Assembly (NCBI GenBank): GCA_009921465.1
Contig: RFXS01000005.1
Coordinates: 1 to 36,015 of the forward strand
DNA: 36,015 bases
Direction: 5' to 3'
Origin: Betaproteobacteria bacterium
GTDB taxonomy: Bacteria; Pseudomonadota; Gammaproteobacteria; Burkholderiales; Burkholderiaceae_C
This document shows, in pieces, positions 13,193 to 30,416 of this stretch. Numbering within the stretch: position 1 is the stretch's first letter; each line of letters opens with the position of its first letter. A model generated the notes under the pieces. That model did no database searches and had not been told where the DNA came from. It saw nothing but the letters and a program-made list of their open reading frames with translations. Position numbers and translations under genes: made by a program.

Positions 13193-13203
13193 AGGAGTTC
13201 ACC

Positions 13204-14190: not shown

Positions 14191-14199
14191 GGGGCTCAC

Positions 14200-14730: not shown

Positions 14731-14748
14731 CCCCTCCTAAGGATCCTC

Positions 14749-16062
14749 ATGAGTTGGCAATTGGCGTCTTGGTTGTTGTTGGGTGGGTCCACCGTGCTGC
14801 TCTTTTTGGGCCTGCCTGTGGTGTTTTCTTTTCTGGTCATCAATGTGCTCGGCGCTTGGATGATCTTGGGTGGCGAAGCGGGCATCGCGCAAATGGTGCG
14901 CAATTGCGTGGGTTCGGTGGCCAGTTTTTCGCTGACCCCCATTCCCTTGTTTGTGCTCATGGGCGAGGTGTTGTTCCACACCGGTTTGGCGGTCAAGGTG
15001 ATCGACGGCATTGAACGTTTGATCAAAAACCTGCCAGGCCGATTGGCGGTGGTGGCCATTGTGGCGGGCACGGTTTTCTCGGCCATTTCTGGCTCGACCA
15101 TCGCCACCACGGCCATGCTGGGTGGGTTGATGGTGCCCTTGATGCTGCAGCGCGGCTACCACCCCACGATGGCCACAGGGCCGGTGATGGCCATTGGCGC
15201 AGTTGACATGCTGATACCACCCTCTGCGCTGACGGTGCTGCTGGGTTCGCTGTCGGGCATTTCGATCAGCAAGTTGCTCATTGGCGGTGTGGTGCCAGGC
15301 CTGATCTTGAGCGTGGTCTTCGTGGCCTACATCGTCATCCGGGTCAAAATTCAACCGCATCTGGCCCCCAATTCCGAATTCACCGCGCACAAAGGTTGGG
15401 ACATGTTCCAGCCTTTCGTGAAATATGTGTTGCCCTTGGTGTCGATCTTTGCTGTGGTGGTGGGTGTGATGATCGCAGGCATTGCCACGCCGACAGAATC
15501 GGCCGCGATCGGCGCCTTTACCACCGTGTTGTTTGCCATGGCCTACCGCGCCTTGACTGTGAAAAACATGCTCGAGAGCTTGCGTGCCACGGTCACGATT
15601 TCGGGCATGATTTTGTTCATCATCATTGGCGCCACCACTTTTGCGCAAATACTTTCTTTTTCGGGTGTGAGCAACGGGGTGGTGCAGGTCATCACCGGTG
15701 CCAACCTGTCGACCAACGCCATCATCGTGGGCATGCTGCTGATATTGATATTCCTGGGTGTGTTTGTGGACCAGGTCAGCATGATGCTCATCACCTTGCC
15801 CATCTTCATGCCCATCGTGCAGCAGTTGGGGGTGGACCAGGTGTGGTTTGGCATCATGTTTCTGATTTGCATGCAATTGGGTTTGCTGCTGCCGCCACAT
15901 GGTTTATTGCTCATGACGATGCGTGGGGTGGCCCCCAAAGAGGTCACCATGATGCATATTTTCCAAGCAGTGATGCCTTACCTGGCTTTTAGCTTTGCTG
16001 TGTTGGCCTTGGTGTTCTTTTGGCCCCCCGTGGCCACCTGGTTGCCCAACCTGTTGGGTTGA
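14749..16062 (+). CDS. TRAP transporter large permease, DctM family
   Basis: This 437-residue polytopic membrane protein is the translocation subunit. Signatures are PLFVLMGEVLFHTGLA, then GTVFSAISGSTIATTAMLGGLMVP and GAVDMLIPPSALTVLLG, and ATPTESAAIGAF in the second half. Length and motif order are normal for DctM. A probable ribosome site (TAAGGA) lies upstream of the ATG at 14749. The stop codon overlaps an ATG for the downstream oxygenase (TGATG at 16060). Confidence 0.94.
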   Translation: MSWQLASWLLLGGSTVLLFLGLPVVFSFLVINVLGAWMILGGEAGIAQMVRNCVGSVASFSLTPIPLFVLMGEVLFHTGLAVKVIDGIERLIKNLPGRLAVVAIVAGTVFSAISGSTIATTAMLGGLMVPLMLQRGYHPTMATGPVMAIGAVDMLIPPSALTVLLGSLSGISISKLLIGGVVPGLILSVVFVAYIVIRVKIQPHLAPNSEFTAHKGWDMFQPFVKYVLPLVSIFAVVVGVMIAGIATPTESAAIGAFTTVLFAMAYRALTVKNMLESLRATVTISGMILFIIIGATTFAQILSFSGVSNGVVQVITGANLSTNAIIVGMLLILIFLGVFVDQVSMMLITLPIFMPIVQQLGVDQVWFGIMFLICMQLGLLLPPHGLLLMTMRGVAPKEVTMMHIFQAVMPYLAFSFAVLALVFFWPPVATWLPNLLG

Positions 16063-16079
16063 TGCACCGAGCTGAGCCC

Positions 16080-17405
16080 ATGAGCGCTGTGCCGCCAACC
16101 AAGCCTGTGCACCCCTTGGTTCAACACAGTTGTGTGCACCGTGATTTGTACACCGATGCCGCTTTGTTTGAGCAAGAGCGACATCGGTTTTTTGCCCGCT
16201 CCTGGTTGTTTGCAGGGCATGGCAGCCAAATTCCCGCCAGCGGTGACTTCATCACGCTGGATTTGTCAGGCCAGCCCGTGCTGTTGCTGCGCGACGCGCA
16301 AGGTGAAATTCGGGCATTTTTCAACCGGTGTGCCCACAAGGGCTCAAAGCTCTATACCTTGGCCCAAGGCCATGCCGGAAAGATGCTGCGCTGTCCTTAC
16401 CATGCCTGGTCATATCGCTTGGACGGCAAGCCATTGACCGTGCCCCTTAAAGAGGGATATGTGGGCACGGGCTTGGACAGCAGTCCGTCTGGCCAAGGTC
16501 TCACGCTGCTGCCAGGGGTTCGTGTCTACCGCGAATTTGTGTTTGTGCGCTTGAGCCCTGAAGGCATGGACTTTGAGGCTTATTTTGGCGATGCCTTGAA
16601 AGCCATTGACAACATGGTCGAGCGCTCTCCGGTCGGTCGACTGGAGGTTGCCGGCGGGGTGCTGCGCAACACCATTGCTTGCAACTGGAAGATGTACCTG
16701 GAGAACATCAACGACGCGGTACACCCCGTTTCTTCGCACGAATCGGCCAGCAGCGCCGCGCGGCAACTGTGGCAAGGCCATGGCAGTGATGAGCCCATGC
16801 CGATGGCGATGGAGCAAATGCTTCCCTTTGCCAATGGCTATGAATATTTCGACCGCATGGGGGCACGCATTCATCCCCAAGGTCACAGTTTGTTGGGTGT
16901 GAACTTCAGCATCCATTCGGCCTATGCGGTGCCGCCCGATTACCAGGCCGCGCTGGAGGCCAGTTGGGGGGCTGAGCGCACCCATGAGGTGTTGCAACGT
17001 TCGCCGCAAAATGCGGTGCTCTATCCAAGCATTGCACTGAAGGGTTCGCCCTTGTCCATGCGGGTCATTCGGCCCGTGGCTGTCAACCGCACCGTGGTGG
17101 AGGCCTGGAGCTTTCGCGCCGTGGGTGCACCAGACCTGTTGCTCGAGCGCGCCATGACCTATAACCGGTTGGTCTTTTCGCCCATGTCGGTGGTGGCCCA
17201 TGACGATGTGCATTTGTTTGAAAGCATTCAAGACGGGTTGTTGGCCATGGGAAACCCATGGGTCAGCTTGCACCGCAACCTAGACGCCATTGAAAATGCA
17301 CAATCCAAAGCCGACACCAACAGCGCCAATGAATGGCTGATGCGCAACCAATACCGCGCTTGGGCGCAGACCATGGCACAGCCTCTCGCATCGGAGCACG
17401 CATGA
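16080..17405 (+). CDS. aromatic ring-hydroxylating dioxygenase alpha subunit, pair 1
   Basis: This 441-residue alpha subunit has a Rieske [2Fe-2S] domain with C84-x-H86 (RCAHKGS) and C105-x2-H108 (CPYHAW). The catalytic domain contains NWKMYLENINDAVHPVSSHES, with the bridging Asp and two iron-ligand His. The type is that of benzoate/anthranilate-like oxygenases that need a small beta subunit, and the beta gene follows by ATGA overlap. The start at 16080 makes its N-terminus equal in length to the paralogue at 21662. An in-frame ATG at 16062, overlapping the TRAP stop, would add six residues. No reductase gene is near. Confidence 0.92.
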   Translation: MSAVPPTKPVHPLVQHSCVHRDLYTDAALFEQERHRFFARSWLFAGHGSQIPASGDFITLDLSGQPVLLLRDAQGEIRAFFNRCAHKGSKLYTLAQGHAGKMLRCPYHAWSYRLDGKPLTVPLKEGYVGTGLDSSPSGQGLTLLPGVRVYREFVFVRLSPEGMDFEAYFGDALKAIDNMVERSPVGRLEVAGGVLRNTIACNWKMYLENINDAVHPVSSHESASSAARQLWQGHGSDEPMPMAMEQMLPFANGYEYFDRMGARIHPQGHSLLGVNFSIHSAYAVPPDYQAALEASWGAERTHEVLQRSPQNAVLYPSIALKGSPLSMRVIRPVAVNRTVVEAWSFRAVGAPDLLLERAMTYNRLVFSPMSVVAHDDVHLFESIQDGLLAMGNPWVSLHRNLDAIENAQSKADTNSANEWLMRNQYRAWAQTMAQPLASEHA

Positions 17406-17881
17406 GCGATGTGCAGGCACAAAGTGTGCGAGATTTTGTCGCCAACGAAGCGCGTTTGCTCAACCGGGGTCGTTACCAAGACTGGCTTGGTTTGTTTGCA
17501 TCCGATGGGCGGTACTGGGTTCCGCTGGGCGGAGATGTTCAACATGAGTCGGATGTGCACAACGCCTTGGCCAACGAAGACCGCTTGTTGCTGGGCTTGC
17601 GCGTTGCGCGTTTGCTCGCAGGGCGCGCCCATTCTCAGCAGCCGGCCAGCCGCAGTGCCCACGTCATCCAACTCCCGCTGGTGGACCAGGTCGATGACCA
17701 CGCTGCCGAGGTTTACACGCCGTTCACTTATGTAGAGAGCCGGGGCGAGCAACAGGTTTGGTTGGCGGGGCATTGGTGCCATCGACTGCGCCGTGAAGAA
17801 GGCGCTTGGCGCATCGCGCTCAAGCGCGTGAACTTGCTCAATGCGGGTGCAGCCCACGCCGCCATTCAATTGTTTCCCTGA
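17402..17881 (+). CDS. aromatic ring-hydroxylating dioxygenase beta subunit, pair 1
   Basis: This is a 159-residue SnoaL/NTF2-like small subunit that forms the alpha3beta3 oxygenase. Visible features are FVANEARLLNRGRYQDWLGLFASDGRYWVPL at the start, RLLAGRAHSQQPASRSAHVI in the middle and WRIALKRVNLLNA at the end. It overlaps the alpha gene by four bases. It has the usual family length, and no catalytic residues are expected. Between it and the next gene is a 50-base spacer containing that gene's ribosome site. Confidence 0.92.
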   Translation: MSDVQAQSVRDFVANEARLLNRGRYQDWLGLFASDGRYWVPLGGDVQHESDVHNALANEDRLLLGLRVARLLAGRAHSQQPASRSAHVIQLPLVDQVDDHAAEVYTPFTYVESRGEQQVWLAGHWCHRLRREEGAWRIALKRVNLLNAGAAHAAIQLFP

Positions 17882-17931
17882 ACCACACATGCCAAAAACT
17901 GTGCATTGCAATTCCACTGGAGAGTGCCGTC

Positions 17932-20127
17932 ATGGCTGAACGTTCATTTGTACAAGAAGTGCAAAAGCTGCGCTTGGGCGCGGGCGAAGAGTTTGTGGGC
18001 GAAGGCATTTTGGCCGTCACCAAGGCCTTGCTCGAGTCGGGGGTGTCGTATGTGGCGGGCTACCAAGGGGCGCCCATTTCACACTTGATGGACGTGCTTG
18101 CCGATGCACAAGACATCTTGCAAGAACACGGCATTCGGTTTGAAAACAGTGCCAGCGAGGCCACGGCAGCGGCCACCTTGGCCGCATCGGTCAACTACCC
18201 CTTGCGTGGGGCGGTCACCTTCAAAGCCACGGTGGGCACCAATGTGGCTTCTGATGCCTTGGCCAACCTGGCCTCCGGTGGGGTGACCGGTGGGGCCTTG
18301 ATCGTGGTCGGCGAAGACTACGGCGAAGGCTCTTCCATCATGCAAGAGCGCAGCCATGCGTTTGCCATGAAGTCCCAAATATGGCTGCTCGATCCCAGGC
18401 CGAATTTGCCCAGCATGGTCAAGGCCGTCAAGATGGGTTTTGAGTTGTCCGAGGCCAGCCACACGCCGGTGATGCTTCAGTTGCGCATTCGGGCCTGTCA
18501 CGTGCATGGCCGCTTTACGGCCAGTGACAATGTGCGCGCACCATTTGCACTGCACGAAGCGATGGAACAACCCCAGCGCGATGTCAGTCGCATTGTGTTG
18601 CCACCAGCGAGTTTTGTGCACGAGCAAGAAAAGCTCACCCACCGCTGGCCTGCCGCCGTGGATTTCATTCAAAAACACCAGCTCAACGAATTTTTCGATG
18701 GCGAGGCCAAAGACGTGGGCATCTTGGTGCAAGGGGGCAACTACAACGCCTTGGTGCGCGTGCTCGAGCGACTTGGTTTGGCCGATGTGTATGGTCGCTG
18801 CCGAGTCCCCTTGTATGTGATGAACGTGGCTTACCCGGTGGTGGATGCCGAAGTACTGCGTTTTTGCCAAGGCAAGCGAGCCGTCTTGTTGGTCGAAGAG
18901 GGCCAACCCAACTTTGTCGAACAAAACGTGGCCACGGTGTTGCGCCAAGCTGGTTGCACCACCTTGCTGCATGGCAAAGACATGTTGCCGCCAGCGGGCG
19001 AGTACACCTTGCACGAAGTGCTCAAAGGCGTGCGTGCATTCGCCCAACGCTACGACTTGATTGCTGCGGCACAAACATCGGTTGCTCAGGCCTTGCCCGC
19101 GGCGGCGAGCGCTTCAGCAGCACCCGCACCCACCCCCACCAAGGCGCACAAGGTGTTTGCGCTCAAACCTTTGCAGCAAGTGGTTCAGCCGCGCCCACCA
19201 GGCTTTTGCACCGGTTGCCCAGAGCGGCCCATTTTTGCCGCCATGAAGCTGGTAGAAAAAGAATTGGGCGCGCACCATGTCAGTGCCGACATTGGGTGTC
19301 ATTTGTTTTCGATCTTGCCGCCATTTCACATTGGCAACACCACCATGGGATACGGCTTGGGCACAGCAGGCGCTTCTGCGATGAATGTGCCTGCTGGCAA
19401 AAAAGCCATCTCCATCATGGGCGATGGTGGGTTTTGGCACAACGGTTTGACCAGTGGCATTGCCAATGCGGTGTTCAACCGCAGCAACAACCTGACCATC
19501 GTCGTTGACAACAGCTACACCTCTGCCACCGGTGGGCAAGATGTCTTGTCATCCAAAGCCCTCAATCCCACCCGCAGCACAGGGCACTTGATCGAAAAAG
19601 CCGTGCGTGGTGTTGGCGTGGAATGGGTGCGCACTTTCAAGCGCACTTACGACGTGGCAGGGCTGCGCGACGCCTTGAAAGAAGCTTTGACCAGCACCCA
19701 GCCCGGCCCCAAGGTGTTGGTGGCGCAATCAGAATGCATGCTCAACCGACAGCGGCGCGAAAAACCCCAGGTGCGGGCCCAACTCGCTGCCGGTCAGCGT
19801 GTGGTGCGCGAGCGGTTTGGTGTTGATTCCGACACCTGCACAGGCGACCACTCGTGCATTCGCATTTCGGGCTGCCCTTCCTTGTCCATCAAAACCAACC
19901 CCGACCCTTTGCGCACCGATCCGGTGGCCACTGTGCTTGACAGCTGTGTGGGTTGTGGCATGTGTGGTGAGGTCTCGCACGCTGCCGTGTTGTGCCCCTC
20001 TTTTTACAAAGCCCAAATCGTTAGCCACCCAAGCGCATGGGAGCGTTGGTGGGATGGACTGCGCCGCCAGGTGGTGGGCGTTTTGCAACGACGCCGCGCT
20101 CAGCAATTGGCACAGTGGGCTTTTTGA
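17932..20127 (+). CDS. indolepyruvate:ferredoxin oxidoreductase-type alpha subunit with C-terminal ferredoxin domain
   Basis: This 731-residue 2-oxoacid:ferredoxin oxidoreductase subunit would oxidatively decarboxylate an aryl- or acyl-pyruvate to a CoA ester and reduce ferredoxin. The N-terminal pyrimidine-binding domain has GYQGAPISHLMDVL and ENSASEATAAA. An Ala/Pro linker lies near residues 385-400. The thiamine diphosphate site is GDGGFWHNG from residue 497, ending in VVDN. Near the end are two cluster-binding regions: an unusual C636-x5-C-x5-C (CTGDHSCIRISGC) and a normal C672-x2-C-x2-C plus a later Cys before Pro. GGAGAG upstream supports the start at 17932. The paired subunit follows by TGATG overlap. 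It sits between two oxygenase pairs. Confidence 0.9.
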   Translation: MAERSFVQEVQKLRLGAGEEFVGEGILAVTKALLESGVSYVAGYQGAPISHLMDVLADAQDILQEHGIRFENSASEATAAATLAASVNYPLRGAVTFKATVGTNVASDALANLASGGVTGGALIVVGEDYGEGSSIMQERSHAFAMKSQIWLLDPRPNLPSMVKAVKMGFELSEASHTPVMLQLRIRACHVHGRFTASDNVRAPFALHEAMEQPQRDVSRIVLPPASFVHEQEKLTHRWPAAVDFIQKHQLNEFFDGEAKDVGILVQGGNYNALVRVLERLGLADVYGRCRVPLYVMNVAYPVVDAEVLRFCQGKRAVLLVEEGQPNFVEQNVATVLRQAGCTTLLHGKDMLPPAGEYTLHEVLKGVRAFAQRYDLIAAAQTSVAQALPAAASASAAPAPTPTKAHKVFALKPLQQVVQPRPPGFCTGCPERPIFAAMKLVEKELGAHHVSADIGCHLFSILPPFHIGNTTMGYGLGTAGASAMNVPAGKKAISIMGDGGFWHNGLTSGIANAVFNRSNNLTIVVDNSYTSATGGQDVLSSKALNPTRSTGHLIEKAVRGVGVEWVRTFKRTYDVAGLRDALKEALTSTQPGPKVLVAQSECMLNRQRREKPQVRAQLAAGQRVVRERFGVDSDTCTGDHSCIRISGCPSLSIKTNPDPLRTDPVATVLDSCVGCGMCGEVSHAAVLCPSFYKAQIVSHPSAWERWWDGLRRQVVGVLQRRRAQQLAQWAF

Positions 20128-21641
20128 TGGCCACAGACAAGCATCCCCAACCCATCAAAATTGCCATCCTGGCCATGGGCGGCGAAGGCGGTGGCGTGCT
20201 GGCCGATTGGATCGTCGACTTGGGTGAACAAGCCGGGCACTGGGCACAAACCACGTCGGTGCCTGGCGTGGCCCAGCGCACGGGTGCGACCATTTATTAC
20301 GTTGAGCTCTTTCCCAAATCTGCGGCTCTGGGGGGCGGTCCTGAGCCAGTGCTGGCCTTGATGCCCTTGCCCGGTGATGTGGACATTGTGTTGGCCTCTG
20401 AGTTGATGGAGGCGGGCCGCGCCGTACAGCGCGGATTGGTGACCACCGACAGAACCACCCTGATTGCCTCCACCCACCGCGTTTATTCCATCACCGAAAA
20501 ATCGGCCATGGGGGACGGACGCGTCGATGCCGACCAACTGCTGGCCCATGCCCAGGCTGCCGCCCAACGCTTGGTGTGTTTTGACATGGCGGCATTGGCC
20601 GAGCGCGAGGGCAGTGTCATCAGTGCGGTGTTGTTTGGTGCATTGGCTGGCGTGGGCGTATTGCCTTTTTCGCGCGCCCAATTCGAAGCCACCATTGAGC
20701 GCGCTGGTTTGGGCGTCAAAAGCAGTTTGCAGGCCTTTGCCCAAGGCTTTGCGCTGGCACAAAACCCAGCCTTGATCACACCACCTGCCCCAATGGCGCA
20801 GTCGGCGACCAAACCCGTGCCCCAAGAGCCGGTGCTGCGCGCTTGTGTGGACCAGGTGTGGGACATGCTGGCCGAGCCCGCGCGCACATTGGCCATAGAA
20901 GGCGTGCGCCGCATGGCCGATTACCAAGACCCCGCTTACGCACGCTTATACGTTGATCGATTGGAAAGTGTCCACCAGGCCCTGCCCCAAGACCCGATGG
21001 AGGTGATGGCCGCATTGGCGCGCCATTTGGCCTTGTGGATGTCCTATGAGGACACGGTTCGGGTGGCCGACCTCAAAACCCGTGGCAGCCGATTTGACCG
21101 GGTGCGCCAAGAAGTGGGTGCCCAGCCAGCGCAATTGCTGCGCATCAACGAATACATGCACCCGCGCTATCAAGAGGTGTGCGAATCATTGCCGGCCCGC
21201 TTGGGCACTTGGTTGATGGCGTCCCCTCGGTTGCGGGCATTGGGCGAGCGAGTGCTCAGCCGTGGTCGGGTGGTGCAAACCAATTCTTTGAGCGGCTTTT
21301 TGCTGCTGTACGTGGTCTCGGCCTTCAAGCCCTGGCGGCGTCGCACGCTGCGCTACCAACTGGAAAATCAACGCATCGAGCTGTGGCTGTCATTGGTGCG
21401 CCAATGGGTCCCTGCCCACCCCGCATTGGCCTTGGAGTTGGTGTTGTGTCAGCGTTTGGTCAAGGGCTATAGTGACACCCACGCCCGTGGTCACCACCAC
21501 CACGACCAGTTGCTGGCCTTGGTGGCTGAGCATGGTGCGCGTTTGAGCGCCGAACAACTGCGTGCCCTGCGAGAAGCGGCCTTGGCCGATGACCAAGGCA
21601 ATGCCTTTCGCAGCACACTGGCGTCTCAAGGCTGGGCGTGA
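20127..21641 (+). CDS. indolepyruvate:ferredoxin oxidoreductase-type beta subunit with C-terminal extension (DUF6537-like)
   Basis: This 504-residue protein is the partner of the preceding gene. Residues about 9-190 are the gamma/beta-type domain of 2-oxoacid oxidoreductases: ILAMGGEGGGVLADWIVD, then TTSVPGVAQRTGATIYYVE and DIVLASELMEAGRAV. Classical IorB proteins stop at about 200 residues. Here about 260 more helical residues follow, with RMADYQDPAYARLYVDRL and TNSLSGFLLLYVVSAFKPWRRRTLRY, resembling the DUF6537 extension of aerobic proteobacterial homologues. The function of the extension is unknown to me. A His-rich GHHHH lies near residue 454. The ATG overlaps the alpha stop. Confidence 0.87.
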   Translation: MATDKHPQPIKIAILAMGGEGGGVLADWIVDLGEQAGHWAQTTSVPGVAQRTGATIYYVELFPKSAALGGGPEPVLALMPLPGDVDIVLASELMEAGRAVQRGLVTTDRTTLIASTHRVYSITEKSAMGDGRVDADQLLAHAQAAAQRLVCFDMAALAEREGSVISAVLFGALAGVGVLPFSRAQFEATIERAGLGVKSSLQAFAQGFALAQNPALITPPAPMAQSATKPVPQEPVLRACVDQVWDMLAEPARTLAIEGVRRMADYQDPAYARLYVDRLESVHQALPQDPMEVMAALARHLALWMSYEDTVRVADLKTRGSRFDRVRQEVGAQPAQLLRINEYMHPRYQEVCESLPARLGTWLMASPRLRALGERVLSRGRVVQTNSLSGFLLLYVVSAFKPWRRRTLRYQLENQRIELWLSLVRQWVPAHPALALELVLCQRLVKGYSDTHARGHHHHDQLLALVAEHGARLSAEQLRALREAALADDQGNAFRSTLASQGWA

Positions 21642-21661: not shown

Positions 21662-22984
21662 ATGTCAATCCACAAATTGCCACAGGACACAACCCGTTGG
21701 GTGCGCGAACGTGAAGTGCACCGAGATATTTTCACCGACCCCGATGTGTTCGCGCTGGAGATGCAAACCGTTTTTACCCACACCTGGGTGTATGTCGGGC
21801 ACGCCAGTCAAATACCCCAACCGGGTGACTATTTCAGCACCACGGTGGGCGACCAACCCGTGGTGATGGTGCGCCAGTGGGATGGAAGTGTCAGCGTTTT
21901 ACACAACCGCTGTGCCCATAAGGGCGTCAAAGTTGCCGGTCGTGAACATGGCAACACAGGTAAATTTTTTCGCTGTCCTTATCACGCATGGACCTTCAAG
22001 TTGGATGGGACAGTGCTGGCCATTCCCTTGAAAAATGGTTACGAGGAAAACGGTTTCGAGGGTACTGAAGCCGCACTGGGCATGGCCAGCGTGGGTGCGG
22101 TCGAGGTGTACCGCGATTTTGTGTTTTGCCGCTTGGCCCGCCACGGCGAGTCTTTTGCTGATTTTTTTGGAGACGCGCTGTCGACCATTGACAACATGGT
22201 GGAGCGTTCGCCCGAGGGCAAGCTCGAGGTCGCAGGGGGCGTGTTGCGCTACATGCATCGATGCAACTGGAAGATGTTGGTCGACAACCAAACCGACACC
22301 TGCCACCCGATGGTGGCGCACGAGTCTTCGGCGGGCACGGCGGTCAAGGTGTGGAAAGCGGCGCCTGAGGGCACGCCCAAGCCCATGGCCGTGGAATTGT
22401 TTGCTCCCTTTGTCAGTCCCTATGAATTTTTTGAGGGGATGGGCATTCGGGCCTGGCCCCATGGGCATGGGCACACAGGCACGGCCGACTCCATCCACGC
22501 CGCTTATTCGCCCGTACCGGGTTATTGGGACCAAATGAAGGCCGCCTATGGCGAGCAACGGGCCCAAAAAATTCTGGGTGAAGTGCGCCACAACACCATT
22601 TACTTTCCCAACATCATGGTCAAGGGGCCGATCCAAACCTTGCGCGTGTTCAAACCTTTGGCCGCTGACCGCACCTTGGTGGAGTCTTGGACCTTTCGTT
22701 TGGTGGGTGCACCCGATTTGTTGCTCGAGCGCACCTTGATGTACAACCGCTTGATCAATGCCCCGACATCGGTGGTGGGCCATGACGATTTGGAGGTGTA
22801 CGAGCGTTCCCAGCAAGCCCTGCATTCAAGAGGGCGCGATTGGGTCAATGTGGGTCGCTTGTACGATCCGTCAGAGACTGCTTCGCCCACACAAGTGGTC
22901 AATGGCACCAGCGAGTTGCAAATGCGCAACCAATACCGCGCTTGGGCCAAGTACATGGCCATGGGTGCGCAGGTGAACGCATGA
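21662..22984 (+). CDS. aromatic ring-hydroxylating dioxygenase alpha subunit, pair 2
   Basis: This 440-residue alpha subunit is paralogous to the one at 16080, with which it shares long blocks such as IDNMVERSP, LEVAGGVLR and LRNQYRAWA-like ends. The Rieske ligands are C84-x-H86 and C105-x2-H108. The catalytic domain has NWKMLVDNQTDTCHPMVAHESS with the bridging Asp and iron-ligand His pair. The ATG at 21662 follows GGGAGA at a good distance. A GTG at 21638 would overlap the previous stop but is less likely. The beta gene overlaps by ATGA. Differences around the catalytic helix suggest a different substrate or step from pair 1. Confidence 0.93.
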   Translation: MSIHKLPQDTTRWVREREVHRDIFTDPDVFALEMQTVFTHTWVYVGHASQIPQPGDYFSTTVGDQPVVMVRQWDGSVSVLHNRCAHKGVKVAGREHGNTGKFFRCPYHAWTFKLDGTVLAIPLKNGYEENGFEGTEAALGMASVGAVEVYRDFVFCRLARHGESFADFFGDALSTIDNMVERSPEGKLEVAGGVLRYMHRCNWKMLVDNQTDTCHPMVAHESSAGTAVKVWKAAPEGTPKPMAVELFAPFVSPYEFFEGMGIRAWPHGHGHTGTADSIHAAYSPVPGYWDQMKAAYGEQRAQKILGEVRHNTIYFPNIMVKGPIQTLRVFKPLAADRTLVESWTFRLVGAPDLLLERTLMYNRLINAPTSVVGHDDLEVYERSQQALHSRGRDWVNVGRLYDPSETASPTQVVNGTSELQMRNQYRAWAKYMAMGAQVNA

Positions 22985-23463
22985 ATGCCGCCCCCACCAG
23001 TGCCCTGATGGATTTGGTCTACCAAGAGGCACGCTGCATCGATGAGCAGCGCTGGGACGATTGGCTGGCCATGTACACCGATGACGCCCATTACTGGATG
23101 CCCCTGACCCACGGACAAACCGACCCCTTGCTGCAAGGCTCGTTGATGTACGAAGACAAAATGCTGCTGGGCATCCGCGTGGAGCGGCTCAAAGGGCGGC
23201 GCACCTTTTCGCAAGAGCCCATCAGCCGATGCCACCACTTGCTGCAAGCACCCAGTGTCGAGTCCATCGATACCGCGCAAGGACTGGCGGTGGTGCGGGC
23301 TGCGTTTCATTATGTCGAAACCCGTGGCGATGAACAGCAGTTGTATGCCGGTTGGGCCACCTATCACTGGAGACAGCAAGGCGCAGATTGGCGCATTGCA
23401 CTCAAGCGCGTCGACCTGGTCAATTGCGACGCCGCATTTGGCAATATCCAGCTGTTCATGTGA
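22981..23463 (+). CDS. aromatic ring-hydroxylating dioxygenase beta subunit, pair 2
   Basis: This is a 160-residue NTF2-like beta subunit. Features are LVYQEARCIDEQRWDDWLAMYTDDAHYWMP, then GIRVERLKGRRTFSQEPISRCHHLLQ and WRIALKRVDLVNCDA. It is similar to the beta subunit at 17402 and belongs with the alpha subunit just upstream. It is followed by a ligase gene after 10 bases. Confidence 0.92.
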   Translation: MNAAPTSALMDLVYQEARCIDEQRWDDWLAMYTDDAHYWMPLTHGQTDPLLQGSLMYEDKMLLGIRVERLKGRRTFSQEPISRCHHLLQAPSVESIDTAQGLAVVRAAFHYVETRGDEQQLYAGWATYHWRQQGADWRIALKRVDLVNCDAAFGNIQLFM

Positions 23464-23473
23464 AAGCGCCTCC

Positions 23474-25132
23474 ATGCCCCTGACCGATTTGGACCCCCAA
23501 GCCGCTGACTGCACGGTGCACGCCGTTTTGCAGGCGGCTGCTCAACGCCAACCCCACGCCGACTTGCTGTTCACAGAACGTGTCACGGCGGCGCAATATG
23601 GCATCGACACTGGCACGGTGTCCTACGGACAAGCCTTGGCCACCGTGGCCCAATGGCGCGAGGCCTATCAAAGCGCTGGCTATGGGCACGGCCACCGGGT
23701 GGGCTTGCTGCTGGACAACCGGCCAGATTTTTTATACCACTGGTGGGCCCTCAATGCCCTGGGTGTGTCGGTCGTGCCCATCCACTCGGACATGCGTTCG
23801 GCCGAGCTGCAATACCTGATGGGCCACAGCGAAATTGCCTTGGCCGTGGTGCTGCCCCAACGCACGCAAGACGTTGGGCTGGCTGCCAAGGCCGTCGGCA
23901 GCGACTGTGCGGTGTGGGCCCATGGCAGCGCAGACCCTTTGCCACACGCACAACGCGCGGCCCCACTGGCGGCACAAGCGGTGGGGCGCAGCAGCGAATG
24001 CGCCTTGCTGTACACATCGGGCACCACCGGCCGGCCCAAAGGTTGCCGCTTGCTCAATGGATATTTTTTGGCTGCTGGGCTGTGGTACGCCCAGTTGGGG
24101 GGTGCGTGTGTGATGCGCCTTGCCCAAGAGCGCGTCATCACCCCCTTGCCACTCAACCACATGAACGCCATGGCCTTTTCCACCATGGTCGTGCTCATGA
24201 CCGGTGGCTGCTTGGTGCAACTCGATCGATTTCACCCCCAAACCTGGTGGGACAGCGTGGCCCAAAGCCGTGCCACGGTGATCCATTATTTGGGGGTCAT
24301 GCCTGCCATGTTGCTGGCGGCCGCGCCCAGTCCCAGTGACCGACTGCACGCTGTTCGCTTTGGCTTTGGTGCAGGGGTGGACCACCGCAACCATGCGCCT
24401 TTTGAAGAGCGGTTTGGTTTTCCATTGGTCGAGGCCTGGGCCATGACCGAGACCGGGGCCGCCGCCTGTGTGATGGCCAACCACGAACCGCGCCATGTGG
24501 GGACCCATTGTTTTGGCAAACCGCCACCTGCGATGGCCTATTGCTTGGTCGATGACCAGGGGGTGGATGTGGGTGTCGATGTGCCCGGCGAGTTGTGGGT
24601 GCGCGCCCAAGGGCCAGACCCGCGCCATGATTTTTTTGCCGGTTACCTCAAGGACGAAGAGGCCACCGCTGCCGCTTGGGAGCAGGGCTGGTTTCATACC
24701 GGCGACCTGGTCAAACGCGACGCGCAAGGCTTGTTGTATTTTGTGGACCGCAAGAAAAATGTGATTCGGCGCAGCGGGGAGAACATTTCCGCCGTCGAAG
24801 TGGAAAGCGTTTTGGCCCAGCACCCGGCCATCAAAGCCTGCGGCATTGCCGCCACCCCAGATGCCGTGCGCGGTGATGAGGTGCTGGCGTGTGTCGTCAC
24901 CCGACAGGCGCTGCCCGTGGCAGAGCGCGAAGCCTTGGCGCACGATGTGGTTCGCCATTGCCTGGCCCAATTGGCCTATTACAAGGCGCCGGGTTATGTG
25001 GCCTTTGTCGACGCGCTGCCGGTGACTTTGTCGCAAAAAATCCAACGCGGACAGTTGCGCGACTGGGCACGCGATTTGCCCGCGCAAGCCCATTGCATCG
25101 ATGTGCGCGCACTGAAAAAGCGACAAACATGA
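23474..25132 (+). CDS. AMP-dependent acyl-CoA synthetase/ligase
   Basis: This 552-residue ANL-superfamily enzyme would activate a carboxylic acid to its CoA thioester using ATP. The phosphate-binding motif YTSGTTGRPKG is at residues 180-190. The A5-type motif EAWAMTETGAA, then GWFHTGDLVKRD and the hinge region DRKKNVIRRSGENIS follow. The C-terminal domain ends with LSQKIQRGQL, whose Lys is the expected adenylation residue. It resembles long-chain or crotonobetaine/carnitine-type ligases. The ATG at 23474 is the first good start after the beta-subunit stop. The thiolase-like gene overlaps its end by ATGA, so the CoA ester made here is probably used by the next two proteins. Confidence 0.92.
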   Translation: MPLTDLDPQAADCTVHAVLQAAAQRQPHADLLFTERVTAAQYGIDTGTVSYGQALATVAQWREAYQSAGYGHGHRVGLLLDNRPDFLYHWWALNALGVSVVPIHSDMRSAELQYLMGHSEIALAVVLPQRTQDVGLAAKAVGSDCAVWAHGSADPLPHAQRAAPLAAQAVGRSSECALLYTSGTTGRPKGCRLLNGYFLAAGLWYAQLGGACVMRLAQERVITPLPLNHMNAMAFSTMVVLMTGGCLVQLDRFHPQTWWDSVAQSRATVIHYLGVMPAMLLAAAPSPSDRLHAVRFGFGAGVDHRNHAPFEERFGFPLVEAWAMTETGAAACVMANHEPRHVGTHCFGKPPPAMAYCLVDDQGVDVGVDVPGELWVRAQGPDPRHDFFAGYLKDEEATAAAWEQGWFHTGDLVKRDAQGLLYFVDRKKNVIRRSGENISAVEVESVLAQHPAIKACGIAATPDAVRGDEVLACVVTRQALPVAEREALAHDVVRHCLAQLAYYKAPGYVAFVDALPVTLSQKIQRGQLRDWARDLPAQAHCIDVRALKKRQT

Positions 25133-26298
25133 GGCAACGCCAGTCTTACCAAGGGGTGGCGGTGGCCGTGCCCATCACCGTGCCCTACCAACGCTACTGC
25201 ACCCAAGGCGCCCATTGGTTTGTGGGTCAAGCGGTGCAGGCTTTGGTGCAGGCATCCGGTTTGGCCAAGGAAGACATTGATGGGCTGTGCCTGAGCAGTT
25301 TTTCGCTCAGCCCCGACACTGCTGTGGGTTTGACCCAGCACTTGGGTTTGTCGCCGCGCTGGTTGGACCACATCCCCACTGGGGGTGCCTCTGGCGTGAT
25401 GTCGCTGCGCCGCGCTGCCCGCGCGGTGCAAGCTGGCGACGCCGACGTGGTCGCTTGCATCGGGGCCGACACCAACCATGTGGACTCATTTCGCCAAACC
25501 CTGGGCAGCTTCAGCCACTTTGCCCGCGACGCGAGTTACCCCTATGGGTCGGGTGGGCCCAACTCGGTGTTTGCCTTCATCACGGCCAACTACATGCGCA
25601 CCTATGGCGCGCGCCGCGAAGACTTTGGCCGCATCGCGGTCGATCAGCGCAGCAACGCTTTGAAAAACCCCAATGCCTTGTTCAAAAAGCCACTCAGTCT
25701 GGACGAGTACATGGCGGGGCGCCCCATTTCAGACCCCATTCATTTGTTTGATTGCGTCATGCCCTGCGCGGGGGCCGATGCATTTTTGGTCATGAGCCAG
25801 GCGCGCGCGCGCGATTTGGGCCTGCCCCACGCCATCATCCGGGGCGCCATTGAGCGACACAACGCCTATGCCAGCGACCCCATCATGGTGCAAGGGGGGT
25901 GGCGGCGCGACCTCGATGATTTGTACGCACAAGCCGATGCCACACCAGCACAAGTTGATTTTGTGCAAACCTATGACGATTACCCGGTGATCGTGATGAT
26001 GCAATTCGAAGACCTGGGCTTTTGTGCCAAGGGCGAGGGGCCACAGTTTGTTCGTTCGCACGCCATGACGCACGATGGCAGCTTTCCCAACAACACCAGC
26101 GGGGGTCAGTTGTCGGTGGGCCAAGCTGGTGCGGCTGGTGGTTTTATTGGCATGGTCGAGGCGCTGCGCCAACTGTGTGATCTCGCTGGGGAGCGCAGTG
26201 TGATCGGAGCGCAACTGGGCTTGGTCTCGGGTTTTGGCATGGTCACTTACGACCGCTGTTTGTGCACCGGTGCGGTGCTGTTGGGGCGTCCCGCATGA
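25129..26298 (+). CDS. thiolase-fold protein lacking the catalytic cysteine, SCP2/Ltp2-like
   Basis: This is a 389-residue thiolase-superfamily protein of the lipid-transfer/SCP-x type. Where active thiolases have the acylated Cys, this protein has T84-G-G-A-S-G89 with no Cys. The usual Gly-His-Pro is Gly331-Gln332-Ala333 in NNTSGGQLSVGQAGAAGG. A Cys-x-Gly remains near the end (CLCTGAVLL). A Claisen thiolase reaction is therefore unlikely. Cys-less relatives that pair with DUF35 proteins act as retro-aldolases on beta-hydroxyacyl-CoA side chains, as in Ltp2-ChsH2 of steroid degradation. The next gene, overlapping by ATGA, is a DUF35 protein, which supports that reading (inference). Confidence 0.9.
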   Translation: MRQRQSYQGVAVAVPITVPYQRYCTQGAHWFVGQAVQALVQASGLAKEDIDGLCLSSFSLSPDTAVGLTQHLGLSPRWLDHIPTGGASGVMSLRRAARAVQAGDADVVACIGADTNHVDSFRQTLGSFSHFARDASYPYGSGGPNSVFAFITANYMRTYGARREDFGRIAVDQRSNALKNPNALFKKPLSLDEYMAGRPISDPIHLFDCVMPCAGADAFLVMSQARARDLGLPHAIIRGAIERHNAYASDPIMVQGGWRRDLDDLYAQADATPAQVDFVQTYDDYPVIVMMQFEDLGFCAKGEGPQFVRSHAMTHDGSFPNNTSGGQLSVGQAGAAGGFIGMVEALRQLCDLAGERSVIGAQLGLVSGFGMVTYDRCLCTGAVLLGRPA

Positions 26299-27548
26299 CC
26301 ATGCCACTGATGCGCCCTGCGCGCAAAAACCCCATCTTGCGCACCCCGCAAATGAACCTGCCGCCATCGGCGCGCAGTCGGGTTGCGATGGGTTTGACCG
26401 CTGCTGCAGCAGAAGGTCGTTTTGAATTGCAGGTGTGCCAAGACTGTGCCACCGTGCAGTACCCCCCGCGCGAGGCCTGCGTGCACTGCGTGTCGCCCCG
26501 CTTGCAGTGGCGCGCCCAAACAGGCTGGGGGCAGTTGCTGGCCAGCACCACCTTGCACCACAGCAATGATTTGTTTTTTCGCGAACGCTTGCCTTGGCGA
26601 CTGGGCATGGTGGCGTTGGATGCCGGCCCATCGGTGATGGTGCATTTGCACAGCGACGTGGGCGATGCACCGTGCCGCTTGCGGGTGGGTGCGCGCTTGG
26701 ACCGGGCGGGGCAAGCGGTCTTGATAGGTTTCCCAGAGAAAGAGAGCGAACACATGGCCGACGACAAAATGCTGCGCGAGATGGGCAGCGACCCCAAGTT
26801 CCGCAAGGTGCTGGTGACCGACGGCAAAACCCCCGTGGGACAAGCCATGGTTCGGGCCTTGGTCAAGGCCGGTGCAGACATCGTGTGGGTGGGCCACGCC
26901 GAGCCTTGGAAGAAATTGCCCGGATTGAGTGAGCTCGCTGCGTTGCCACAAGTCACCATGTTGCCACTGGACCTGAGCAATGAGCGCTCGGTGACCACGC
27001 TGGCCGGTGAAATTGGGGGCAAGGTCGATATCGTCATCAACAACGCCGAGGTGCACCGCAGCCACGGCATTGGCAACCGCACCGGCACCGATGTGGCACG
27101 CATGGAGATGGAGATCAACTACCTGGGCTTGTTGCGCTTGTCCCAGGCTTTGGGTCCGGCCTTGCGCGGTCGAGCGGCCGATGGCGTGACGCATGCCTGC
27201 GCTTGGGTCAACTTGCTGTCGATCTATGCACTGTCCAACTTTCCTTCGCACGGCACCTATTCCGCCTCCAAGGCAGCTGCTTACTCGTTGTCGCAATGTC
27301 TGCGCGCCGAGATGCGCCCCGCTGGCATCCGTGTGGTCAATGTGTTTCCAGGGCCGATTGACGATGAATGGAATCAAAACATGCCGCCACCCAAATTGGC
27401 CCCTGACAGTTTGGCCAGTGCCGTTGTCAAAGCCTTGCGCGATGGCACCGAGGACGTCTACCCCGGGGATGTGGCGCACGAGTGGCTGCAGCGCTGGCGT
27501 GAAAACCCCAAGGTGTTAGAGCGAGAAATTGCAGCGGGAGGCACTTGA
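26295..27548 (+). CDS. Zn-ribbon/OB-fold (DUF35) protein fused to an SDR domain
   Basis: This 417-residue protein has two domains. Residues about 25-150 are a DUF35 module: zinc ligands C48-x2-C51 and C62-x2-C65, then an OB-fold with LGMVALDAGPSVMVHL. Residues about 168-410 are a short-chain dehydrogenase: TDGKTPVG at 175-182 in place of the usual TGxxxGxG, Asn-Asn-Ala-Glu, a Ser near 309, and Y322-SASK326. No stop separates them. An in-frame ATG at 26754 (codon 154) with a purine-rich AGAGAG stretch upstream could also give a separate 264-residue SDR. The DUF35 part should bind acyl-CoA and support the thiolase-like partner. The SDR part may reduce or oxidise the product aldehyde or ketone. 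Confidence 0.88.
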   Translation: MTMPLMRPARKNPILRTPQMNLPPSARSRVAMGLTAAAAEGRFELQVCQDCATVQYPPREACVHCVSPRLQWRAQTGWGQLLASTTLHHSNDLFFRERLPWRLGMVALDAGPSVMVHLHSDVGDAPCRLRVGARLDRAGQAVLIGFPEKESEHMADDKMLREMGSDPKFRKVLVTDGKTPVGQAMVRALVKAGADIVWVGHAEPWKKLPGLSELAALPQVTMLPLDLSNERSVTTLAGEIGGKVDIVINNAEVHRSHGIGNRTGTDVARMEMEINYLGLLRLSQALGPALRGRAADGVTHACAWVNLLSIYALSNFPSHGTYSASKAAAYSLSQCLRAEMRPAGIRVVNVFPGPIDDEWNQNMPPPKLAPDSLASAVVKALRDGTEDVYPGDVAHEWLQRWRENPKVLEREIAAGGT

Positions 27549-27550
27549 AC

Positions 27551-28345
27551 ATGAGCAGCAACGCACCCTTGTTGACGGCCTTGGTCGATGCCATGCGCAC
27601 GCGGCGCATTGAAGTCATTGACCTGACCCAAACCCTCACGCCCGACTTTCCGCAAATTGCCCTGCCCCCCGAGATGGGTCAGTGCTGGCCGTTTCGCATC
27701 GAAGAGGCATCCCACTACGACGAGCGTGGGCCGGGTTGGTACTGGAACAACTTCTCTTGTGGCGAGCACACGGGCACTCACTTTGATGCCCCCATCCATT
27801 GGATATCCGGGCGCGACCTGCCCAACAACGCGGTGGACACCATTCCCGTGCAGCATTTCGTTGCACCCGCTTGCGTGGTGGACTGCTCGGCACAGGTGGC
27901 GCAAAACCCCGACTACTTGCTCACCGTTGACGATTTGCTTGCTTTTGAGGCCGCGCACGGGCGCATCCCCGCTGGGGCGTGGCTGCTCATGCGCACCGAC
28001 TGGTCCCAGCGCAGCGACCCCGAGGCCTATCAAAATTTTGACGAAACCGGCCAGCACACCCCGGGGCCGAGCGCACAGGCCGTGCGTTTTTTGGTCGATC
28101 AGCGCGATGTGCTGGGCTTTGGCTCAGAGGCGATTGGCACCGATGCCGGTCAGGGCTATCACCTGCGCCCGCCTTACCCTTGCCATTACTACATGCACGG
28201 GGCGGGGCGCTATGGCTTGCAGTGCCTGAGCAATTTGGACAAGTTGCCCGCCACGGGTGCGGTGATCTTGAGCCCGCCCTTGAAGATCCAAAAAGGCAGC
28301 GGCAGCCCCTTGCGCGTGCTGGCACTGGTGGAACACGCGGCATGA
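27551..28345 (+). CDS. cyclase-family metal-dependent hydrolase (kynurenine formamidase/isatin hydrolase-like)
   Basis: This is a 264-residue hydrolase. The metal-binding motif HTGTHFDAPIHW is at residues 73-84, and VIDLTQTLTPDFP at the N-terminus is typical. A later LGFGSEAIGTDAGQG and a His-containing YMHGAGRYGLQCLSNL complete the family pattern. Members hydrolyse amides or lactams such as N-formylkynurenine and isatin, or cyclic esters. GGGAGG about 10 bases upstream supports the ATG at 27551; a TTG at 27545 overlaps the previous stop. With the indolepyruvate-type oxidoreductase and oxygenases of the operon it raises the idea of an indolic substrate, but the family is broad. Confidence 0.9.
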   Translation: MSSNAPLLTALVDAMRTRRIEVIDLTQTLTPDFPQIALPPEMGQCWPFRIEEASHYDERGPGWYWNNFSCGEHTGTHFDAPIHWISGRDLPNNAVDTIPVQHFVAPACVVDCSAQVAQNPDYLLTVDDLLAFEAAHGRIPAGAWLLMRTDWSQRSDPEAYQNFDETGQHTPGPSAQAVRFLVDQRDVLGFGSEAIGTDAGQGYHLRPPYPCHYYMHGAGRYGLQCLSNLDKLPATGAVILSPPLKIQKGSGSPLRVLALVEHAA

Positions 28346-29091
28346 ATGCCCTTGCCGCAAACGGTTTGCGCCAAGTGGCCTTGGTCAGTGGCGGCAGCGC
28401 GGGCATTGGCCGGGCGGTGTGCGAGCAGTTGATTGCACAAGCTTGTGAGGTGGTGTCGCTGGACGTGCAAGCGCCGAGTTGGCAACACCCAAAGCTGCAT
28501 GCCGTGCAGGTGGATTTGCTCGACCGCCAGGCCACAGCGCAGGCCTTGCAGCAAGTGGTGCGCGACTGGCCCATCAACACCGTGGTGCACAACGCGGGCT
28601 TGATCCGTGCGGCCTTGTTGCCCGACGTGCGCTTGAGCGACTTGGACGATTTGACGCAGTTGCACTTGGCGTGTGCCATTCAAATGGTGCAAGCGGCCTT
28701 GCCCACCATGCGCGACCAACACTTTGGCCGGGTGGTGGTGTTGTCATCGCGTGCCGCGGTGGGCTTGGCCACGCGCAGCGCTTATTCAGCCACCAAGGCG
28801 GGCTTGATGGGCATGGCCCGCACCTGGGCTTTGGAACTTGGCCCCATTGGGGTGACGGTCAATGTGATCGCCCCGGGCCCCATCCGCAGCACGGCCATGT
28901 TCCATGATGTGGTGCCTGCCGGCAGCGACAAAGAGCAGCAATTGGCGTCCTCTTTGCCTGTGCGCCGCTTGGGCGAGCCCGCCGATGTGGCCCGCGCGGC
29001 GGGGTTTTTTGTCCAGCCCGACAGTGGTTTCATCACTGGACAGGTGTTGTATGTGTGTGGCGGTGCCAGCGTGGGCAGCTTGAACCTGTGA
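28342..29091 (+). CDS. SDR-family oxidoreductase
   Basis: This is a 249-residue short-chain dehydrogenase. The cofactor motif SGGSAGIGRAV lies at about residues 16-26. Asp after the second strand (SLDVQ) suggests NAD preference. Also present are HNAG, a catalytic Ser in LSSRAA and Tyr-x3-Lys in YSATK. The end FITGQVLYVCGG is normal. It starts within the stop of the cyclase gene. It is the last gene of the long operon, and several small hairpins follow. Confidence 0.92.
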   Translation: MNALAANGLRQVALVSGGSAGIGRAVCEQLIAQACEVVSLDVQAPSWQHPKLHAVQVDLLDRQATAQALQQVVRDWPINTVVHNAGLIRAALLPDVRLSDLDDLTQLHLACAIQMVQAALPTMRDQHFGRVVVLSSRAAVGLATRSAYSATKAGLMGMARTWALELGPIGVTVNVIAPGPIRSTAMFHDVVPAGSDKEQQLASSLPVRRLGEPADVARAAGFFVQPDSGFITGQVLYVCGGASVGSLNL

Positions 29092-29228
29092 GGTTTCGCC
29101 ACCGAAACGTGGACAAAAGGGGCAGGGGGAATCCCTGAGAAACTCCAGCGTCGCACAAGCGACAATGCCAGTTGTTTTTCAATCGATGTCCCAAAGTGGG
29201 TCGTGAAAGTTGTTTTAAAGGAGTGATC
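29092..29228 (+). other. intergenic region with three short hairpins
   Basis: Between the last operon gene and the ABC binding protein are GTTTCG-CCAC-CGAAAC (29093-29108), CAGGG-N5-CCCTG (about 29123-29137) and GTCGC-ACAA-GCGAC (29150-29163). None is followed at once by a U-tract, though TTGTTTTT occurs about nine bases after the third. They could reduce read-through or protect the mRNA end. The gene at 29229 has a clear AAGGAG ribosome site. I found no confident promoter boxes. Confidence 0.4.
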
Positions 29229-30416
29229 ATGCGCACAACGAAATCAGGCCGTTTGCTGGCCTTGTCTTTGGCCACTTTGTTGGCCGCTTCCCTGGTTCAA
29301 GCCGCTGACAAGGTCAAGGTTGGATTTGTCAGCACCTTGTCTGGCCCCAACGGCGCTTTGGGCGCAGAAATCCGTGACGCCTTCAATTTGGCAGTCAAGC
29401 TCAATGGCGGCAAGCTCGGTGGTTTGCCCGCCGAGGTGTTGATTGGCGACGACCAGTTCAAGCCCGATGTGGGCAAGCAGCTGTTTGAGCGCTATGTCAA
29501 GCGCGACAAAGTTGACTTCATGACCGGCGTGGTGTTTTCCAACATCATGCTGGCCGGTTTGCCCGAAGCCGTGGGCGAAAAAACCTTTTACCTGAGCCCC
29601 AATGCTGCCCCTTCGCCAATTGCAGGCAAAGAATGCACGCCTTATTTCTTTGCCGTGTCTTGGCCCAATGACGCCTACCACGAGGCCGCTGGCCAATACG
29701 CCACGACCAAGGGCTTCAAGTCCGCTTATTTGGTCGCGCCCAATTACCAAGCGGGCAAAGACTCTTTGGCCGGGTTCAAGCGCTATTACAAGGGCAAGGT
29801 GGCCGCCGAGGTCTACACCAAGCTGGGCCAGTTGGACTATTCGGCCGAGCTGGCCGAAATCCGCGCGGCCAAGCCCGATGTGCTGTATTTCTTCCTGCCC
29901 GGGGGCATGGGCATCAACTTCATCAAGCAGTTCGTGGCCGCTGGCCTGAACAAAGACACCAAACTGGTGTTGCCTGGGTTTGGCGCCGACCAAGACATCA
30001 TCCGCAGCGTGGGTGACGAGATGTTGGGCATCAATGACACCGCCCATTGGGGCTTGGACTTGAACAATGCCGCCAACAAGAAGTTTGTGGCCGAGTTCGA
30101 AAAAGAGTACAAGCGCTTGCCCACCGTCTATGCCGCCCAAGGCTACGACACCGCTTTGCTGATCGACGCGGCCGTGCGCGGCGCCAAGGGCAACTTGGAG
30201 GACAAAGAAGCCTTGCGCCGCCACATCAAAGAGGCCAAGTTCGAGTCCGTGCGCGGTGCCTTCAAGTTCAACACCAACCAGTACCCGATCCAAAACTACT
30301 ATTTGCGCGAAGTGCAAAAAGATGGCCAGGGTCGCTTGGTCAACAAGATCGTTTCGCAAACCCCCGTGTTGGCCAACCACGGTGATGCTTACGTGCAAGA
30401 CTGCCCAATGAAATAA
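29229..30416 (+). CDS. ABC transporter substrate-binding protein, LivK/branched-chain or aromatic type
   Basis: This is a 395-residue periplasmic binding protein of the Leu/Ile/Val family. The signal peptide is residues 1-23, ending Val-Gln-Ala-Ala. The mature start KVKVGFVSTLSGPNGALGAEIRDAFNLAVK is the family hallmark. Later features are DDQFKPDVGKQL and YAAQGYDTALLIDAAV. AAGGAG lies 8 bases upstream of the chosen ATG. In Burkholderiales many such proteins bind aromatic acids rather than amino acids, and the surrounding oxygenase genes favour that. Confidence 0.93.
   Translation: MRTTKSGRLLALSLATLLAASLVQAADKVKVGFVSTLSGPNGALGAEIRDAFNLAVKLNGGKLGGLPAEVLIGDDQFKPDVGKQLFERYVKRDKVDFMTGVVFSNIMLAGLPEAVGEKTFYLSPNAAPSPIAGKECTPYFFAVSWPNDAYHEAAGQYATTKGFKSAYLVAPNYQAGKDSLAGFKRYYKGKVAAEVYTKLGQLDYSAELAEIRAAKPDVLYFFLPGGMGINFIKQFVAAGLNKDTKLVLPGFGADQDIIRSVGDEMLGINDTAHWGLDLNNAANKKFVAEFEKEYKRLPTVYAAQGYDTALLIDAAVRGAKGNLEDKEALRRHIKEAKFESVRGAFKFNTNQYPIQNYYLREVQKDGQGRLVNKIVSQTPVLANHGDAYVQDCPMK

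Follow-up and report, generated by a model that had tools for sequence, protein, structure and literature searches.

A cysteine-less thiolase homologue and a DUF35–SDR fusion protein of the iad auxin-degradation locus as a proposed isatin-forming retro-aldolase

We analysed a 36,015-nucleotide stretch of a Betaproteobacteria genome (contig RFXS01000005.1, assembly GCA_009921465.1; hereafter the window), in which a gene for a thiolase-fold protein (positions 25129–26298, forward strand) precedes a gene that joins a DUF35 region to a short-chain dehydrogenase/reductase (SDR) domain (26295–27548, forward strand). By gene order and homology, this pair corresponds to iadG–iadH of the iad locus for auxin degradation that has been published for Variovorax. 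We propose, with a probability of roughly 0.74, that IadG and the DUF35 part of IadH form a redox-neutral retro-aldolase that converts dioxindole-3-acetyl-coenzyme A (CoA) to isatin and acetyl-CoA, and that the SDR half of IadH is non-catalytic or barely catalytic. Locus identity, domain make-up, the missing cysteine, the tyrosine of the aldolase motif, the isatin hydrolase neighbour and the decay of the SDR site were computed directly; which substrate is used, that its cleavage is an aldol step, and what Asp284 and the SDR fold do are inferred. The step is drawn differently in print: a 2025 preprint (PMC12633357) describes IadG as a ketothiolase and IadH as an alcohol dehydrogenase, and proposes a reductive loss of C2H2O2 to give C8H7NO2, whereas the sequences support an isatin-forming aldolase. 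Through the iad pathway, root bacteria can regulate the auxin of plants, and its transfer to further root bacteria has been used for the benefit of plants (PMC12633357).

The order in the window (Rieske pair, ligase, thiolase-like gene, fusion, cyclase, SDR) is that of iadDE-F-G-H-I-J in Variovorax paradoxus CL014 (PMC12633357), and named Variovorax contigs have this set of genes as well. Both open reading frames (ORFs) of the pair are open, encoding 389 and 417 amino acids, and they overlap by 4 bases (ATGA), as the original prediction, made from the letters alone, had described; the upstream ligase gene overlaps the thiolase-like gene by ATGA too. In IadG, Thiolase_C_1 passes its Pfam cut-off and Thiolase_N reaches 23 bits, under its cut-off of 26.4. 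IadH is a single ORF with Pfam domains zf-ChsH2 (residues 36–67), OB_ChsH2_C (72–136) and adh_short (171–362), and the predicted joining of a zinc ribbon and OB fold to an SDR in one product is borne out. Its DUF35 part (26400–26702, forward strand), the proposed docking partner of IadG, carries zinc cysteines at residues 48, 51, 62 and 65 and is assigned from Pfam and sequence, the 50 Foldseek matches shown for IadH all being SDRs; the SDR-fold part (26802–27536, forward strand; fold match 5u4s) is probably non-catalytic in most relatives. Single-chain models of IadG and IadH have a mean predicted local distance difference test score (pLDDT) of 78.9 and 78.0, respectively.

The best two PDB fold matches of IadG are the DUF35 aldolases Sal (9myr, partner Shy) and Ltp2 (6ok1, partner ChsH2). 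In a profile alignment, Gly86 (codon at 25384–25386, forward strand) takes the position of the nucleophilic Cys in 7yvy, a thiolase from Pyrococcus, as expected from the GGASG that the original prediction had noticed there, and Sal likewise has Gly. Our set of IadG relatives holds 118 distinct sequences, of which the 115 that are readable at this position all have Gly (3 more are gapped), and 117 have the motif YDDY, with the remaining one gapped there. This motif (Tyr282-Asp283-Asp284-Tyr285; 25972–25983, forward strand) aligns with YDCY in Sal and YDHF in Ltp2. Where these two and the window carry Y-D-x-[YF], HDAF is found in the thiolases 7yvy and 7pxp. In CtSal, Tyr302 and Cys304 lie within YDCY and Tyr302 is required for activity, and the catalytic residues of Ltp2 are Tyr294 in YDHF and Tyr344 (PMC12329534). 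Gln327 and Gln332 of IadG, in GGQLSxGQ, lie 45 and 50 residues past the tyrosine, like Gln347 and Gln352 of Sal, to which they may be equivalent. IadG thus combines a thiolase fold that lacks the nucleophile Cys, a Tyr in Y-D-x-[FY] and an adjoining DUF35 partner gene, and the folds, motif and partner together support the predicted CoA-dependent retro-aldolase of the Ltp2 or Sal kind. Because the known acid residues are missing (Asp284 aligns with Sal Cys304, and Gly334 with Ltp2 Tyr344), IadG is, to judge from these alignments, a variant of the DUF35 retro-aldolase type rather than a strict Sal or Ltp2; Asp284 could act as the acid in place of Cys304. The ratio of nonsynonymous to synonymous substitution rates (dN/dS) of the IadG homologue is 0.068.

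The thiolase fold, and the name and EC number given to IadG in PMC12633357, would suit an ordinary ketothiolase that acts on a 3-oxoacyl-CoA after an earlier oxidation. We give this the slightest credence: Gly occupies the nucleophile site in every readable sequence, and the HDxF base motif expected of a thiolase (EC 2.3.1.16) is replaced by one with Tyr, so that a plain thiolase was rejected, there being neither Cys nor His. Furthermore, C3 of dioxindole-3-acetate is quaternary and bears the hydroxyl, and should not be open to oxidation to a 3-oxoacyl-CoA with the ring intact.

The gene directly downstream of the pair points to isatin as the product of the retro-aldolase. This IadI homologue (27551–28345, forward strand; PF04199) matches the isatin hydrolases 5nmp (370 bits) and 5nna (363 bits) along almost all of its length. 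A plasmid of Roseibium aggregatum carries a complete iad core together with a reductase gene; next to its fusion is a hydrolase whose alignment with isatin hydrolase A (5nnb) covers 257 of 257 residues (583 bits) and shows 9 differences by hand count. PMC12633357 labels IadI a kynurenine formamidase and proposes a broad-specificity amidase. Isatin, dioxindole and isatinic acid have all been detected in cultures of V. paradoxus CL14 (PMC9613470), and deletion of iadF, iadG, iadH or iadI leads to accumulation of C10H9NO4 (PMC12633357), from which loss of C2H4O2 leaves C8H5NO2, the formula of isatin. The claim that the side chain of an aryl acid is removed after activation by an acyl-CoA ligase is supported, the acid probably being indole-3-acetic acid (IAA) oxidized to dioxindole-3-acetic acid.

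The pair might instead cleave another oxidized indole or an aryl hydroxyacyl-CoA, with isatin not the direct product. An older proposal runs via 2-aminobenzoylacetic acids (in a passage citing Egebo 1991), and an Agrobacterium pusense plasmid (L132) has the thiolase-like gene, the fusion and the cyclase gene, and the 10 kb to each side of them contain no gene annotated as a Rieske oxygenase or a ligase. We regard this as very unlikely given the close isatin hydrolase match next door and a core order that is kept in four Alphaproteobacterial plasmid loci as it is in Burkholderiales loci. On the A. pusense plasmid, the annotated start of the fusion (L132:10001–11254) lies 375 bases late, which hides the DUF35 domain.

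We hypothesize the following course for the proposed retro-aldolase. IadF would form the CoA thioester of dioxindole-3-acetic acid, and the DUF35 part of IadH would hold IadG, as Shy holds Sal and ChsH2 holds Ltp2. Tyr282 would deprotonate the tertiary hydroxyl at C3, the acetyl-CoA arm would be cleaved from this ring carbon, and Asp284, in the place of Sal Cys304, or a neighbouring residue would protonate the acetyl-CoA enolate. The products would be isatin and acetyl-CoA, without redox change, and the adjoining hydrolase would open isatin to isatinate. The SDR fold of IadH would be a fused domain with little or no catalysis of its own, selected for assembly, substrate binding or hand-over of the product.

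Marks of an active classical SDR are a TGxxxGxG cofactor loop and an active site of Asn, Ser, Tyr and Lys. In the window the loop is degenerate, with TDGKTPVG (26817–26840, forward strand) in its place. For comparison across relatives, IadH was obtained from 132 loci, of which 13 repeats and the window's own copy (L001) were dropped to leave 119 distinct sequences, window included. The four DUF35 zinc cysteines are kept in 119 of 119, and the first, second and third glycines of the SDR loop in 0, 4 and 112. The window has YSASK (27258–27272, forward strand), with Tyr322 and Lys326 intact; its relatives mostly have Phe at 322 (Phe in 97 and Tyr in 13 of the 117 sequences that could be counted, L129 and L130 being cut by contig ends). 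All 45 Variovorax-titled contigs fetched, which do not include CL014, have Phe here, and a Burkholderiales record whose scaffold is named VARIO8X (L061) has Tyr. The original prediction had imagined a built-in dehydrogenase; with Phe in most relatives, Tyr and Lys together in 7 of 117 (among them the window and L041, which is 94% identical to it), the first loop glycine lost in 119 of 119 and the second in 115, these sequences do not support that as a conserved function of the fusion.

Fusions from outside the family (L035–L040 and L122–L136) show many other pairs at the Tyr and Lys sites, Y/Q, H/C, H/H, A/A, T/G and T/A among them, and F/K in four, as expected from repeated loss; a parsimony count on one tree is 13 changes for the Tyr and 6 for the Lys. 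The domain is nevertheless under purifying selection despite the decay of its site. Between the window and L041, both Tyr-bearing, dN/dS is 0.042 in the SDR part and 0.059 in DUF35, and among Phe-type loci the medians are 0.161 for DUF35 and 0.148 for the SDR part (the 10 loci that fulfilled a strict length rule, 32 non-independent pairs). Retention of an SDR fold without the full catalytic set is the plainest reading.

Several observations weigh against our proposal. No enzyme assay of IadG or IadH was found in the literature searched. The IadG model falls below a pLDDT of 50 at residues 118–141 and 325–333 (the GGQLS loop), so that its active-site loops are of low confidence. YDDY also occurs in relatives outside iad, and the role of Asp284 as an acid is conjectural. 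The SDR site is not wholly erased, as Lys326 is kept in 102 of 117 sequences and Ser309 in 113 of 117, and the window itself retains Asn275, Ser309, Tyr322 and Lys326, so that dehydrogenase activity of the window's own IadH could persist. The count of 7 in 117 with both Tyr and Lys overstates independence, as most of the sequences counted are close relatives of the window. The nearest solved SDR, 5u4s, has Leu at the Tyr position yet was solved with NADP; loss of the Tyr does not therefore rule out cofactor binding. Deletion of iadI also raises C10H9NO4, so the phenotype alone does not place IadH at the cleavage step, and C8H7NO2, which is isatin plus two hydrogens, appears in the iadI mutant, from which IadFGH was read as removing the arm reductively (PMC12633357). 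The last observation fits a working reductase, and the isatin reading needs another enzyme that reduces isatin in that strain.

The main competitor follows the preprint and, in its built-in dehydrogenase, the original prediction: IadG would release isatin, which a functional dehydrogenase in the SDR half would reduce to dioxindole, making the removal of the acetyl arm by IadGH reductive. Besides the accumulation of C8H7NO2 and the intact Tyr322 and Lys326 of the window, it can draw on the dioxindole detected in V. paradoxus CL14 (PMC9613470) and on a stand-alone SDR with GGSGGIGG and YCASK (105.6 bits) whose locus also contains a ligase and a thiolase with YDDY. We consider this competitor unlikely. 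Variovorax, the genus of the measured phenotype, has Phe for the catalytic Tyr in all 45 titled contigs fetched, no sequence keeps the first glycine of the cofactor loop, and the adjoining hydrolase belongs to a family that acts on isatin, so that prior reduction of isatin would be a detour.

In L168 (2869–3636 and 5862–8614), this stand-alone SDR is accompanied by the YDDY thiolase, the ligase and a partial Rieske gene of the IadD kind; it is kin to the SDR half of the fusion, with a shared EDLYPGD ending, and perhaps resembles the state of the fused domain before fusion and decay. YDDY as a motif unique to iad was rejected, as YDDY or YDDF also occurs in a wider branch, mostly with a separate DUF35 gene adjoining (L167, L170–L179 and L186); it occurs in L168 and L169 too, where a profile search of 12 and 9 kb, respectively, found no DUF35 above 25 bits. 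In none of the 25 loci surveyed (L167–L191) does a DUF35 share an ORF with an SDR match.

Comparison with known systems places the proposed IadG–IadH aldolase near two steroid enzymes. With the bile-acid side-chain aldolase CtSal–CtShy (9myr; PMC12329534), it shares the fold, Gly for Cys, Y-D-x-Y, GGQLSxGQ and a fused DUF35 partner; it differs in having Asp for the catalytic Cys304, a partner fused to an SDR rather than to a MaoC hydratase, and probably an oxindole rather than a steroid as substrate. The benzoylsuccinyl-CoA thiolase BbsAB (7pxp) shares the thiolase fold and a DUF35-type partner but differs from the window in its HDAF and in a Cys that the alignment places close to the nucleophile site. 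The steroid aldolase TcLtp2–ChsH2 (6ok1) has in common the fold, the base Tyr, the DUF35 partner and cleavage at a tertiary alcohol (C17-OH). The window differs from it by Gly334 at Tyr344, Asp at His296, and an inert partner domain that would be an SDR rather than a MaoC. The product of TcLtp2–ChsH2 is reportedly a ketone. The MaoC domain of ChsH2 lacks catalytic residues (PMC11321319), which may be a parallel to the SDR fold of IadH, not proof of its role. With about even confidence, we suggest that iad loci encode a new DUF35 aldolase complex, in which an Asp-containing YDDY retro-aldolase makes isatin and its DUF35 partner bears a selected, non-catalytic SDR fold as a structural or substrate-holding part, much like the inert MaoC half of ChsH2.

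Of 399 same-family genomes, 32 carry the fusion at full or almost full length (the source genome and 31 others at 67–81% identity). The same 32 genomes hold the Cys-less IadG cluster (E of 5.6e-166 or better; lists compared by eye), which is the outcome of the search suggested by the original prediction for whether the two always go together. In a sample of 398 genomes from the phylum, the fusion occurs in 8: the source genome and G122, both already in the family sample, and 6 new ones at 43–52%. Across both samples, IadG adjoins IadH in 35 of 36 loci (window's included), and the remaining locus starts near a contig end. Among 376 named contigs, the best 80 all have the fusion, and the 34 plasmid records found all have it at a coverage of at least 80%; no relatives were found in the viral collection. 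Full-length relatives across genomes, contigs and plasmids rule out a frameshift between the domains or an assembly artefact, and equally a peculiarity of the source genome.

The original prediction had not recognized the architecture as described. Among the papers listed by full-text literature searches, no title or abstract describes the DUF35–SDR fusion or the iad aldolase step (supplements and most subscription papers lay outside their scope, and an earlier description is possible). Within a single published locus, the architecture is widespread. The main texts of PMC12633357 and PMC9613470 mention neither ‘DUF35’, ‘aldolase’ nor ‘fusion’, and PMC10374108 neither ‘DUF35’ nor ‘aldolase’. 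Should IadG and IadH prove to be a redox-neutral aldolase whose partner is a pseudo-dehydrogenase, the scheme of the pathway and its cofactor balance would change, as would the database names ‘thiolase family protein’ and ‘SDR family NAD(P)-dependent oxidoreductase’, and DUF35 aldolases would extend from steroids to indoles.

The remaining iad genes of the window lie on the forward strand around the pair. Upstream are homologues of IadD (21662–22984), a Rieske oxygenase alpha subunit whose best match at 579 bits is 9o71, the IadDE structure named in PMC12633357; IadE (22981–23463), the beta subunit; and IadF (23450–25132), an AMP-forming acyl-CoA ligase with an iad role taken from the same source. 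Downstream of IadI is a separate SDR, the IadJ homologue (28342–29091). Variovorax-titled homologues are about 80–86% (IadG) and 79–81% (IadH) identical to those of the window. As best hits at E 1e-8, weak ones included, homologues of H, I and J occur in 80 of the 80 named contigs each, G in 79, F in 75, and D and E in 74 each; identity of F drops to 34–35% in two of them (L052 and L102), and the J of L116, at 27%, is placed before G, so that true J stands at 79 of 80 at most. Some named contigs end early (L060 begins 105 bases before H).

The window resembles the iad locus of CL014 (PMC12633357, PMC10374108 and PMC9613470) in the order D-E-F-G-H-I-J and in gene families, but has no IadC-like match: nothing in the window matches the reductase of the Roseibium locus (L131; best E 0.6). 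Elsewhere in the assembly, which is 57.6% complete, contig C148 carries a 37% relative, and iadC is dispensable for IAA degradation in CL014 (PMC12633357). The iad papers differ on the first product of IadCDE, oxIAA in PMC10374108 versus not oxIAA in PMC12633357; the side-chain step is unaffected.

Two IadDE-like Rieske pairs are present (16062–17881 and 21662–23463), and both alpha subunits best match IadD structures (491 bits to 9o71 for the second, at 16062–17405, forward strand). Best-hit homologues of this second pair occur in 66 and 65 of the 80 named contigs, mostly downstream of IadJ; the window has it upstream, whereas in CL014 it is downstream. Between the two pairs are the IorA-like (17929–20127, forward strand; homologue in 69 of 80 named contigs) and IorB-like (20124–21641, forward strand; 71 of 80) subunits of a 2-oxoacid oxidoreductase, the former a candidate for the conversion of isatinate to anthraniloyl-CoA. 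A MarR-type regulator, named by eye, lies at 10512–10973 on the reverse strand (64 of 80).

The solute-binding protein at 29172–30416, in the position of iadK2, is 99% identical in L041, and the remaining 79 named contigs show no match at E 1e-15 within the extent of their flanks; with a close match in 1 of 80, the uptake part of the locus therefore differs, and this sets the window apart from CL014. Upstream, 11124–16062 holds an octopine/nopaline-dehydrogenase-like gene, a 3-hydroxyacyl-CoA dehydrogenase and a tripartite ATP-independent periplasmic (TRAP) transporter, possibly for uptake of indole acids and a side-branch. On a Paracoccus saliphilus plasmid (L135), relatives of the octopine/nopaline-dehydrogenase-like, 3-hydroxyacyl-CoA dehydrogenase and TRAP binding proteins (58%, 50% and 35% identity) follow the iad core. 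A separate Rieske-type oxygenase at 1748–3022, with a tripartite tricarboxylate-type binding protein upstream at 676–1683 (both named by eye), probably belongs to another operon.

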